Shown here: positions 8,574 to 60,477 of the stretch, in pieces | Position numbering within the stretch: the first letter of the stretch is position 1 | Layout: the number at the start of each line of letters is the position of its first letter | Assembly: GCA_013152085.1 (NCBI GenBank) | Contig: JAADHC010000008.1 | Location: 1 to 64,000 of the forward strand | Reading direction: 5' to 3' | Length of the DNA stretch: 64,000 nucleotides | Source of the DNA: Chlorobiota bacterium | GTDB taxonomy: Bacteria; Bacteroidota; Bacteroidia; Bacteroidales; VadinHA17 | The notes under the pieces: generated by a model | What the model was told of the DNA's origin: nothing | Database searches by the model: none | What the model saw: only the letters and a program-made list of their open reading frames with translations | Translations under genes and position numbers: made by a program

Positions 8574-9316
8574 TGAAAGCCTGGATCCAGTCAGTTCTTG
8601 TGTGGTTGTTTGTCGTGGTTTCGCTGATAATAATTTTCCCATTGGCAATCCTGGTATGGATTGTTTCGGTCCCTTTTGACAAACGGCGGGTCGTATTCCA
8701 TTTCTTTACAAGCATCTGGGGTTCGTTATATACCTGGCTGGCACCTTTCTGGAGCGTGAATTTGATGAACCGCGAAAAAATACAGAAGGGCAAAGTCTAT
8801 ATCATGGTATCCAATCATCAATCGATGCTTGATATTCTGGTCCTTTGTCGATTGTTTGCCCATTTTAAATGGGTAAGCAAGGACGAAAATTTTAAGGTTC
8901 CCGTTATCGGATGGGTAATGATCATGAACCGGTATATCCGGTTGAAAAGGGGAAAACGGTCGGGGATCCTGCACATGATGAGAGACGGGAAGAAGACATT
9001 GGAACAGGGATCGTCATTGATGATCTTCCCGGAAGGGACACGCTCGGAAACCACCGAGATGCGAAACTTCAAGGAGGGAGCTTTCCGTCTGGCCAAAGAA
9101 ACAAATACCCCGCTGTTGCCTATAGTATTGGATGGTACCGGAAATGCGTTGCCCAAGCACGGATTTGTGATCCGGGGCCGGCATAACATGACGGTAAAGG
9201 TTCTGGATGAGATTCCGGTAAATGTTGTAAACCGGCTTGGTGCCACCGAGTTAAAGGAAGAAACCTACCGTATTATGTCTGCAGAGCTTAACCGTCTCAG
9301 AAATCCGAAGCTATGA
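8570..9316 (+). CDS. plsC: 1-acyl-sn-glycerol-3-phosphate acyltransferase
   Basis: A 248-residue membrane-bound acyltransferase that adds the second acyl chain to make phosphatidic acid. A strongly hydrophobic N-terminus (SVLVWLFVVVSLIIIFPLAI) anchors it. The acyltransferase blocks are intact: NHQSMLDIL (NHx4D), the FPEGTRSETTEMRNFKEGAF block and LPIVLDGTG. Tandem ATGATG codons offer starts at 8570 and 8573; the first overlaps the lplA stop by 4 nt. It also overlaps the next gene by 4 nt, placing it mid-operon. Confidence 0.92.
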   Translation: MMKAWIQSVLVWLFVVVSLIIIFPLAILVWIVSVPFDKRRVVFHFFTSIWGSLYTWLAPFWSVNLMNREKIQKGKVYIMVSNHQSMLDILVLCRLFAHFKWVSKDENFKVPVIGWVMIMNRYIRLKRGKRSGILHMMRDGKKTLEQGSSLMIFPEGTRSETTEMRNFKEGAFRLAKETNTPLLPIVLDGTGNALPKHGFVIRGRHNMTVKVLDEIPVNVVNRLGATELKEETYRIMSAELNRLRNPKL

Positions 9317-10077
9317 ATCGTATACCGAAACAGGTACTTCGACGGATGGGATTTATCCGTGACCGGCGTGGAATTGCCCGGCGATATCTGAATGAAAGCG
9401 AAAACTGGAAAGAACATCTGGAAAAATCACGAAGTTTTATCCTTCGCTGCATGGAGAAAAGCCGGGCAGGAGGTGCTACGGTTCTGGGCAGCGGATGGTG
9501 GCTTGATATCCCCGTGACAGAACTGGCAGCAAGATTTTCCCCGCTGAGGTTTGTAGATATTTATCATCCCCCCGAAATCAGGAAAAAAGCAGAAAAGTAT
9601 CCTGATATTCAACTGATTGAAGCCGATATTACCGGCGGAGTGGCGCTCCGGATGTACGAGGCTGTCAGAAACAGGCAGAAGAAAAAACCTGTGCTCGCAG
9701 AAATGAATTCGGCAGGATACAAACCTGACTTCGATCCCGGTTTTGTCATCTCCTTGTATCTCAGTCAGATGGATATCATTCTTATGGACTACTGGACAGG
9801 ATATATCACGGCTAATGAGGAAGAGGTTCTTGCATTCCGGAAACAGATACAGCAGCAACATCTGGCTTTCCTGCAGCAACATGAGTCCTGCCTGATTACA
9901 GATACCTATGAGGTGAAAATATACAGGAAAAGCCGGGAGATGACTAAACAACTGGTTCACATTCCCCTGCCCGAGACCCGGTTGAAAGATCATTGGATTT
10001 GGGTGTTCGATATTTCGAGAACCTATGATCCGGATGCCGTCACCTCATTTGAAATACAGGCCCGGTGCCTGATTTAA
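9313..10077 (+). CDS. Uncharacterised protein, methyltransferase-like fold possible
   Basis: A 254-residue soluble protein that I do not recognise by name. The segment ATVLGSGWWLDIPVTELA followed by LRFVDIYHPPEIRKKA and IQLIEADITGG resembles the first strands of a Rossmann-like SAM methyltransferase (glycine loop, acidic residue after strand 2, then a D-containing third strand). No catalytic motif can be assigned. The start overlaps the plsC stop by 4 nt, so translation is probably coupled. The next gene, a broken MutS-like gene, begins 11 nt downstream. Confidence 0.75.
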   Translation: MNRIPKQVLRRMGFIRDRRGIARRYLNESENWKEHLEKSRSFILRCMEKSRAGGATVLGSGWWLDIPVTELAARFSPLRFVDIYHPPEIRKKAEKYPDIQLIEADITGGVALRMYEAVRNRQKKKPVLAEMNSAGYKPDFDPGFVISLYLSQMDIILMDYWTGYITANEEEVLAFRKQIQQQHLAFLQQHESCLITDTYEVKIYRKSREMTKQLVHIPLPETRLKDHWIWVFDISRTYDPDAVTSFEIQARCLI

Positions 10078-10088
10078 AAGAAAACAGT

Positions 10089-10939
10089 ATGGACGGTTTT
10101 GCATCGCAACGGGCAAAAGATAAAGCTGAAAAAATAAAGAGATTTCAAAGATTGGGTGCAGAAGCATCAGGAAGAGTAAAACTGCTCTCGCATCGGATTG
10201 ACGGGGTTGTCTTTGCACGGCTTGCTGTCTTTATTTTTTTCCTTTTTGTTGCCTGGATTGCCACACGTAAAGATTCAGAAATTCTTTGGGGAATATCAGG
10301 CGTGCTTTTTATTATTTTCCTGTTCCTGATCCGTTATCACCAGGCGTTGATCCTGCACCGAAAAACAGAACGCGAAATCATATGGCTGAATGAGGGAGAA
10401 ATTAAATCACTGAACGGGGATTTCTCACATTTTGAAAACGGTCCGGAATATGCCGACCCCCGGCATCCGTATGTTAACGATCTGGATATTTTCGGTGTGG
10501 GATCTTTGTTCCGTTTTCTCAACAGGACAATTACCTTGTCAGGGAAAAAGCGTTTAGCCGGCATACTGAAATCAACAGGGACTGATAAAAAAGATATCCT
10601 GTTGACACAGGAAGCCGTAAAGGAACTTTCCGGAAAAAGCCGGTTGTGGTGTTGCTGGATGAGATCCTGAAAGGGACCAACTCAAAGGATAAGACCTCCG
10701 GATCCAAGGCTGTGATAAGGAAAATGATCTCACTGGGAGGGGCCGGAGTCATTGCGACACATGACCTTCCGCTGGGAAGCCTGGAAAAAGAGCTCCCCGG
10801 AAATGTGGTAAATATATGTTTCGAAGCCTTCCAGGAAGAAGAAACCCTGCGTTTTGATTACCTGCTGCGCCGGGGGATGACACAAAATATGAATGCCACC
10901 TTCCTTATGAAACAAATGGGGATCATCAACAGGATATAA
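10089..10939 (+). pseudogene. MutS-related protein, broken by internal deletion and frameshift
   Basis: Two pieces of one Bacteroidota MutS-family membrane-anchored ATPase. The N-terminal piece (10089-10630) has two membrane helices and the typical HPYVNDLDIFGVGSLFRFLN and LSGKKRLAGIL segments, then ends in a wrong-frame tail at 10670. The C-terminal piece resumes in another frame at about 10640 with the Walker B region VVVLLDEILKGTNSKDKT and runs through ATHDLPLGSLEKE and MNATFLMKQMG to 10939. Together they make about 280 residues where the family has about 600, so the central domain with the Walker A loop is missing. The product cannot be an active ATPase. The deletion should be confirmed against reads because an assembly error would look the same. 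Confidence 0.8.
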
Positions 10940-10996: not shown

Positions 10997-11059
10997 ATAT
11001 AAAATAAATTACATATTATAATATATAATAAAATATAAAATAAATTACATATTATAATA
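10997..11059. repeat. Two 27-bp direct repeats in an AT-only stretch
   Basis: A 27-base sequence beginning ATATAAAATAAATTACATAT occurs identically at 10997-11023 and 11033-11059, 36 bp apart, in about 70 bp that are almost pure A+T. The block lies between the terminator and the parE promoter. Curved DNA or a binding array is possible; nothing coding is seen. The rest of the gap to 11279 has no gene. Confidence 0.75.
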
Positions 11060-11238
11060 CATAATTATGTAATATCCTGTTAAAATAAAAACTCTTGTGA
11101 AGTTTAAGAATTAAGGGAATCACAGATATTGTAAATGGAGCACGTAGCATTTTATTTATTGTGTCTCTTAAGATGAAATCGTTGAAAATTTACATGGATT
11201 GTTAATAAATCGTTAGTGTCTGACGACTTATAATTCCG

Positions 11239-11279: not shown

Positions 11280-13121
11280 ATGACAGCAAATTATTCGGAA
11301 GATACGATCAAAACCCTCGACTGGCGGGAACATATCCGCAAGCGTCCCGGCATGTATATCGGGAAACTGGGTGATGGTTCATCACAGGATGATGGAATAT
11401 ATGTCCTGCTGAAAGAAGTGATGGATAATGCGGTGGACGAGTACATGATGGGTTTCGGGAAGAAGATTACCGTTACGATCAAGGATAAGGTGGTCTCGGT
11501 AAGGGATTATGGAAGGGGCATCCCCCTGGGCAAACTGATTGAAGTTGCTTCGAAAATGAATACAGGCGCAAAATACGATTCCAAAGTATTTAAAAAATCT
11601 GTCGGTCTGAACGGAGTAGGAATAAAAGCCGTAAATGCCCTGACTTCGACATTTACGATCCGGACATACCGGGAGGGGGAAATGCGTATGGCACGTTTTC
11701 TCCGCGGCGAACTGGACAAGGAAGAGCAGGGAGCGGCACCGGAAGAAAAAAACGGTACCCGGGTTACCTTTGTCCCCGACGGGGAGATGTTTGGGGATTA
11801 TCACTATGTTTCGGAGTATGTGGAAACCATGCTCTGGAATTATGTCTATCTGAATGCCGGCTTAACCATTGAATTCAACGGACAAAAGCTTTATTCACGC
11901 GACGGGCTGCTGGACCTGCTTAATGCCAATATGAACCAGCCGGCATTGTATTCGCCGATACATTTGAAAAACGGGGATATTGAACTTGCCTTTACGCACG
12001 GGACACAGTATGGTGAAGAATATTATACTTTCGTAAACGGACAGCATACTACCCAGGGGGGGACACATTTACTGGCCCTGCGTGAAGCGCTGGTACGGAC
12101 GGTGCGTGATTTTTATAAAAAAGAATTCGATGCTTCGGATATTCGTACTTCCATCATTGCAGTCATGAGTATCAAGGTGGAAGAACCGGTTTTTGAATCA
12201 CAGACAAAAACCAAGCTCGGAAGCAAGGATATGGAGCCGGGAGGACCAAGTGTCCGGTTTTATATCATGGAGTTTATCCGGAAAGAAGTGGATGATTACC
12301 TGCACAAGAATCCTGAAACTGCCGAAATTCTCCTGAAAAAGATCCTTGATTCGGAAAAGGAGCGGAAAGCCATTTCATCCATCAAGAAAATTGCACGGGA
12401 ACGGGCAAAAAAGGCCAGCCTGCATAATAAGAAACTAAGGGATTGCCGGATACATTACAACTCATCCGATGACCGCCGGCTCAACACCACTATTTTTATC
12501 ACCGAGGGAGATTCGGCCAGCGGCTCCATAACCAAGTCGCGGGATGTCGAAACACAGGCTGTTTTCAGTCTGAAAGGGAAACCCCTCAATACATATGGCC
12601 TTACCAAGAAAGTAGTGTACGAGAATGAAGAATTCAACCTTTTGCAGGCAGCGTTGAATATCGAAGATGGATTGGAAAACCTGCGTTACAATAATGTGGT
12701 GATTGCTACCGATGCTGATGTTGACGGGATGCATATCCGGATGTTGCTGATGACTTTCTTTTTACAGTTTTTTCCCGATCTGGTTAAGCAGGGACATTTG
12801 TATATCCTGCAGACACCTTTATTCAGGGTGCGCAATAAAAAGGAAACACGGTATTGTTATTCTGATCAGGAACGGGAAAAAGCCATTGCCAAACTGGGTC
12901 CAAAACCCGAAATTACCCGTTTTAAAGGACTGGGTGAAATTTCTCCGGATGAATTTAAACATTTTATCGGGAAAAATATACGACTCGAACCTGTCAGAAT
13001 GCGTATGGACGAGTCGATAAAGGACTTTCTGGAATTTTACATGGGTAAAAACACCCCCGACAGACAGGAATTTATCATCCACAACCTGCGTGTTGAGGAT
13101 GATGTGGTTACCGTATCATAA
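11280..13121 (+). CDS. parE: DNA topoisomerase IV subunit B
   Basis: A 613-residue type IIA topoisomerase ATPase subunit. The GHKL ATPase domain shows [26 protein letters not shown] and [18 protein letters not shown]; the Toprim domain shows ITEGDSASG and [12 protein letters not shown]. The sequence is nearer to ParE than GyrB, and it is followed 14 nt later by parC, a pairing typical of topoisomerase IV in Bacteroidota. The enzyme decatenates daughter chromosomes. A TTG start at 11244 is possible, but the ATG at 11280 gives the family N-terminus ([17 protein letters not shown]). Confidence 0.93.
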
Positions 13122-59954: not shown

Positions 59955-60173
59955 TTAGACAGATTTCAACTTGCTGGCTGAATAAACAATAATATCCAGT
60001 ATTGCCCTGCGGCTTACAATATATTTCCGGTTTGCCCTGAAGAACATCTGTGGATCTGTCATTTCGGTTATGGAATCCAGGATGGCCGCTATGGCAATGG
60101 TGCTGTCATATTTACCCAAAAGATCCTTTACGCTTTCAGCAGCCAGTTGTTCATCAATCAGTACTCTCATCAT
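59955..60173 (-). pseudogene. LytR/AlgR-type response regulator remnant
   Basis: A 72-residue frame that joins the start of a receiver domain (MRVLIDEQLAAESVKDLLGK) to the end of a LytTR DNA-binding domain (DPQMFFRANRKYIVSRRAIL). The parent family has about 240-250 residues, so some 170 are missing, including the phosphoacceptor Asp. The receiver start has also lost residues from the IEDE segment. It follows the histidine-kinase remnant with no gap, the usual order of LytS/LytR pairs. Confidence 0.75.
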
Positions 60174-60477
60174 TTAACCGTGGTTTTCAGGTTTGATAGT
60201 GGGTAATTCAATCACATAATATTCCTGATTTTCTATTGTATTTACCGGTTTGTCCGTAAAAAACCTATATCTCATTCTTATGTTTGCAATTCCCAATCCG
60301 GTGGATTCATCAAGATAATCAGGTTTTCAGCAAACCGTATCTTTTGCAGAAAGATATACGATTCAAGAAATTTCAGTTCCGATTCAACATAAGTTACTGA
60401 AACGGATAAGTTGGAGACTGAAATGTAATTTTCCCGGGATGAAACGTGTAACTGTTCCTTATCAGCCTTTTGATCAG
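60174..60477 (-). pseudogene. LytS-type sensor histidine kinase remnant
   Basis: Translation of the minus strand gives a piece of the kinase dimerisation region, ESELKFLESYIFLQKIRF (about 60390-60330), then, after a frameshift and deletion near 60317, the end of the ATPase domain: STGLGIANIRMRYRFF followed by TDKPVNTIENQEYYVIELP, stopping at 60174. The membrane part, the His residue and the ATP-binding N box are missing. It abuts the end of the CPBP gene at 60478. Confidence 0.7.

Follow-up and report, generated by a model that had tools for sequence, protein, structure and literature searches.

Two adjoining open reading frames (ORFs) upstream of a parE-type gene carry the two ends of a single mutS-like gene in the window, by which we mean the whole 64,000-nucleotide stretch of DNA analysed. 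The locus contains the following features:

9313..10077, plus strand: orf254, a full-length gene preceding the remnants and lacking any Pfam match (E<=1), the usual upstream partner in relatives
10089..10640, plus strand: N-terminal remnant, 184 residues, two hydrophobic segments and the onset of a MutS domain III-like region
10631..10640, plus strand: probable deletion join, a stretch fitting the family from both sides, where the frame changes; bounded by the homology overlap
10631..10939, plus strand: C-terminal remnant, ~102 residues, comprising the Walker B region, the rest of MutS domain V and the C-terminus
11283..13121, plus strand: full-length downstream neighbour, which we take from its sequence to be a parE-type topoisomerase subunit gene

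The ORF listing gives 10065/10089-10670 and 10646-10939, in frames two bases apart. The upstream frame runs open to its stop at 10670, its last ~10 residues being out of family, and the sole start of the downstream frame is a GTG located within the upstream one. The window copy has a single join, neither remnant carries an internal stop codon, and both open frames, compared by eye, retain the family-invariant residues of their stretches. The N-piece ORF matches MutS_III weakly (E 3e-4, under the Pfam cut-off), and the C-piece ORF matches positions 80-160 of the 188 of MutS_V with 30.8 bits (cut-off 30.2). In BLASTP against the ORFs of relatives, the N piece aligned to its own residue 180-184 in most matches, while the C piece aligned from family residue ~502-515 through the C-terminus. 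The first frame thereby corresponds to the N-terminal third and the second to the C-terminal sixth of the family protein. In the 27 relatives with a single ORF matching both pieces, one of which (L015) is itself truncated by a contig end, the pieces are separated by a median of 324 residues (322-338). The 599-position family profile places the window pieces at positions 4-175 (10128-10643) and 500-598. Compared with intact relatives, ~0.97 kb is absent at the join.

Alignment of 23 relatives puts the GxNMxGKST stretch, presumably Walker A, inside the missing part and LLDEILKGTNS, which we take to be the Walker B region, inside the C piece. The window copy lacks positions 176-499, Walker A included, and therefore does not contain a complete MutS domain V. 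Both N-terminal hydrophobic segments typical of the family (40-58 and 63-81 by hydropathy) are present and are followed by the conserved LDxFGxxSLF...R stretch. The original prediction, that N- and C-terminal parts of a ~600-residue MutS-family protein are joined near 10630-10640 in different frames, is borne out by the ORFs, BLASTP and the profile; the alignment likewise agrees with its claim that the Walker A half is gone and Walker B kept, and the flanking genes, described there as intact, are indeed open frames of full family length (orf254 and parE). Relative to orthologues at the same place, the frame is disrupted and an essential motif is lost, as expected of a pseudogene.

Homology from the left extends to ~10637 and homology from the right begins at ~10631, so the sequence common to both sides of the join is ~10 nt at most. 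Within 10560-10720 the repeats listed were imperfect 9-nt pairs, and no long direct repeats were found at the join. An AT-rich pair of 33-nt direct repeats, 97% alike, is located at 10997-11029 / 11033-11065, between the remnant and parE. Neither a same-genus search, which comprised the window's own genome only, nor a contig scan with the N piece yielded a close intact relative from which the window join could be read base by base; across the operon genes, the protein identity to the nearest genome is 61%.

The membrane MutS-like family and its place next to parE

Intact relatives are ~600 residues long; their C-terminal MutS domain V scores above its Pfam cut-off, and MutS III is matched weakly, under its own. 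Most of the 23 aligned relatives have two N-terminal hydrophobic segments, with a further one or two around residues 215-260. Judged by these sequence features, the family is a putative MutS-domain-V ATPase, predicted to be membrane-anchored. It has the ATPase domain V in common with MutS1 and MutS2 but, unlike them, matches over ~220 C-terminal residues only, has no domain I or II reported by Pfam and carries predicted membrane segments. Solved structures match the intact relatives across the ATPase part only. All scores fall far under the MutS1, MutS2 and KamC equivalog cut-offs: for MutS1, 126.5 bits against a cut-off of 480 (NCBIfam PRK05399) and 100.9 against 641.7 (TIGR01070); for MutS2, 80 and 51.8 bits against 400 (the former with TIGR01069). 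Literature searches on membrane MutS-like proteins of Bacteroidetes and on MutS subfamilies yielded no description of this family. Many prokaryotic MutS subfamilies are uncharacterised, according to PMC12292046.

Intact proteins such as L018, L011 and L027 have the N-terminal hydrophobic pair and the MutS_V end found in the window remnants, and their genes adjoin parE from upstream, at the same place. Residues ~185-505 and Walker A, both absent from the window copy, are present in these proteins.

The window's own assembly is a draft of 75 contigs, 99.04% complete. It was scanned for the missing middle with a profile built from 27 rows; among the 75 contigs the matches were confined to the ATPase domains of two further MutS genes, apart from one 23-residue match with E 0.55. 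Both genes are open frames, of 876 and 840 residues. MutS1 and MutS2 are the best-fitting models for their ATPase domains, and we regard them as the MutS1- and MutS2-type genes retained by the assembly. At the DNA level, the region matches only itself within the assembly.

In the bacterial family studied, the mutS-like gene is located upstream of parE, usually after hpt-adk-obg-pap2-lplA-plsC-orf254, and the window gene, placed between orf254/plsC and parE, occupies the same position. A parE match was obtained in 107 of the 117 family genomes; 106 parE loci were scanned, plus the second contig of G024. G037, whose parE lies at the beginning of a contig, is not among the 91 fetched loci. Matches to the family profile of at least 645 bits occur in 51/117 genomes, three of the 51 being partial or having a stop. 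A tree of operon genes was built for the 75 loci holding obg and at least one more gene (the second G024 contig is not among them). Upstream of parE, the gene is full in 30 of these loci, partial in 3 and missing from 42. The tree requires a minimum of 14 switches between the full and the not-full state, 12 of which are imposed by well-supported branches; because it is unrooted, some switches may be gains by transfer. In genus g10 the copies sit elsewhere, and the parE place is empty in the 14 g10 loci with plsC and obg upstream, plus G152. No trace of the mutS-like gene was detected in the loci read from the nearest genus, g13, one genome of which retains a 28-position stub of orf254. plsC and/or lplA were not found at several loci. 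Since a long match is present in only 51/117 genomes and 42/75 tree loci are without the gene, it is dispensable in many genomes of the family.

Piecemeal losses of the mutS-like gene and orf254

Profile scanning of the loci detected the mutS-like gene in 42 of them. Thirty-five copies are full, two are contig-end pieces of G024 and five have large losses, defined as at least 60 residues lost and not at the locus end. The five retain the following profile positions:

G000 (the window): 4-175 and 500-598
G002: 3-76 and 308-598
G003: 520-598, in a single-contig genome
G104: 148-202, 368-483 and 572-598
G140: 212-254 (weak, E about 1e-3) and 448-598, the N-side piece being beside a contig end

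The C-terminal end survives in all five, the positions of loss differ, and no remnant architecture common to the relatives was found. The fragments of G024 (two contigs) and G051 stop at contig ends and were not scored as deletions. Two further copies were left out of the count. In G019 a 161-residue frame covering positions 447-598 lies away from parE within a 348 kb contig (G019:C22:285783-286238, L075). The copy in G075:C263 (L092 / L009), an order-level relative outside the family, is in two overlapping frames of 379 and 290 residues, the gene being long apart from this frame break.

Large losses were registered in 5/40 mutS-like genes and 3/57 orf254 genes, and in 0/431 copies of hpt, adk, obg, pap2, lplA and plsC. 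Fisher's test against these six neighbours gives p 1e-6 for both genes together and 3.5e-6 for the mutS-like gene alone, although the genomes are related and the counts not independent. The count covers genes that still match: wholly absent copies are unscored, and shorter genes leave less to detect. Smaller gaps and frame breaks do occur in neighbour genes (hpt of G044, adk of G135, obg of G044 and G048, pap2 of G116, plsC of G043 and G025), so some assembly or sequencing error is present in the genome set.

Such errors, together with the draft state of the window's assembly, could favour an artefact, in which the strain has an intact gene whose middle was dropped by the assembler. We consider this quite unlikely. 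As described above, no contig carries the missing middle, the region resembles nothing else in the assembly and at most ~10 nt are shared at the window join. The relatives' joins differ within the same gene, one of them in the single-contig genome G003, and random misassembly would not confine large losses to two genes while sparing six still-matching neighbours.

In close pairs of genomes the losses could be read at the DNA level. G104 and its sister G122, which has the full gene, are 89-92% identical in their matching blocks, and G104 has four deletions relative to it:

213 bp, within orf254
523 bp, running from the end of orf254 into the beginning of the mutS-like gene
501 bp and 271 bp, both within the mutS-like gene

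The BLAST matches overlap by 0, 3, 3 and 8 bp at these joins, with ~0-3 exactly shared bases on inspection. An assembler's k-mer is much longer than this. The sharp joins of G104 suggest nonhomologous deletion and speak against misassembly. The systematic misassembly offered by the original prediction is thus not supported, given the selective losses and the ~0-3 bases shared at the joins, and misassembly was rejected as the main reading. Of its other suggestion, a deletion-prone lineage, deletion in place is the supported part: four other family genomes have lost portions of this gene, at positions that differ.

Other pairs show that the losses vary in kind. G026 (L083, 5100-6310) compared with G018 (L082) has lost 635 bp, nearly all of plsC, and ~224 bp inside orf254, both sharply, and its mutS-like gene is full. 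In G108 the whole gene, 1824 bp, is gone at a sharp join relative to G114. Not every loss is a simple cut, because in two other pairs, G031/G112 and G123/G105, a stretch of 300-430 bp with no detectable match stands in place of the gene.

Origin and age of the window remnants

Taken together, the absence of the middle part here and elsewhere in the assembly, the conserved gene order, the independent in-place losses in relatives and the sharp joins in one pair make it very probable that a dispensable gene for a putative membrane MutS-domain-V ATPase was inactivated by nonhomologous deletion of ~1 kb, and that the two remnants represent a pseudogene in the early phase of loss. One or a few such deletions would have removed residues ~185-505 with Walker A and shifted the frame, presumably leaving no functional product. 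The window join may have formed by the same short-overlap mechanism as the sharp joins of the close pair, and the loss was probably fixed owing to the dispensability of the gene.

The terminal branch of the remnants relative to that of the operon genes is 1.56 on a fixed tree (rank 19 of 31, median 1.49), a comparison made over 271 profile-matched columns only and with a long branch leading to the window. The remnants' substitution rate is therefore like that of intact copies, and no long period of relaxed change is evident. The same ordinary rate could equally mean continued selection, and it would suit a split working gene, in which the cell would make both a 193-residue membrane piece and a Walker B piece of 97 residues, acting jointly or singly. 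Both frames are open with their invariant residues kept, and the C-terminal end is retained in 5/5 large-loss cases. We nevertheless give this arrangement almost no credence: ATP hydrolysis is not known to proceed in the absence of Walker A, the C frame has only its GTG start inside the other frame, the remnants of relatives have no shared architecture, and the nearest genus is without a trace of the gene. Absence of Walker A and of a common architecture led us to reject it.

A fairly recent loss-of-function deletion is, in our judgement, the best reading of the age of the event. The alternative would be an older stepwise decay, with several deletions and point changes accumulated over a long time. 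Stepwise loss does occur in this bacterial family, since the gene pair in G104 carries four separate deletions. An older decay seems unlikely for the window copy, with its one join, stop-free remnants and ordinary substitution rate.

A damaged gene pair is also located near the far end of the window:

59955-60463, minus strand: LytS/LytR remnants, internal and terminal losses

Two parts of a LytS-type kinase (60463-60314 and 60311-60180) lack ~60 residues between them as well as the N-terminal part of the protein. The adjacent 72-residue frame (60173-59958) combines a weak receiver-like start with a LytTR piece ending ~27 residues short, compared with ~258 residues in relatives. Six further full LytTR genes, above the Pfam cut-off, remain in the genome. 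The mutS-like gene had been counted as the third in the window broken by clean central loss; the LytS/LytR remnants are real, but they have lost ends besides centres. Also on the minus strand, at 339-918, two small overlapping frames of 120 and 80 residues resemble, by eye, a PemK/MazF-type toxin and its antitoxin.

It can be imagined that the orf254 and mutS-like stretch of the hpt-parE row is repeatedly cut by nonhomologous deletions of 0.2-1.8 kb that leave ordered fragments, and that loss of the ATPase might itself raise the deletion rate elsewhere. Such an effect would agree with the presence of LytS/LytR remnants in this window. It is counter to the state of G026, where two sharp deletions accompany an intact mutS-like gene, and we find the proposal highly unlikely.

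The window locus is best read as an ordinary deletion pseudogene and does not look like a new system; the wider pattern in the family cleanly illustrates a known process. In the work of Kuo and Ochman (PMC2916853), a gene no longer under selection is inactivated and deleted, as proposed here, and large deletions are presented as the likely main route to complete removal of pseudogenes. That work stresses short indels as common first lesions in Salmonella, whereas the losses described here are internal deletions of 0.2-1 kb that leave conserved pieces in order.

At one conserved place the genomes present a compact natural series of gene loss, running from the full gene through remnants with one cut or several and a C-terminal stub to clean absence, with cuts legible base by base in one pair of relatives. 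It also advises caution, in that relatives should be compared before such fragments are named split genes or assembly errors. Finally, the dispensability of the gene in many genomes bears on the possible role of the membrane MutS-like family.
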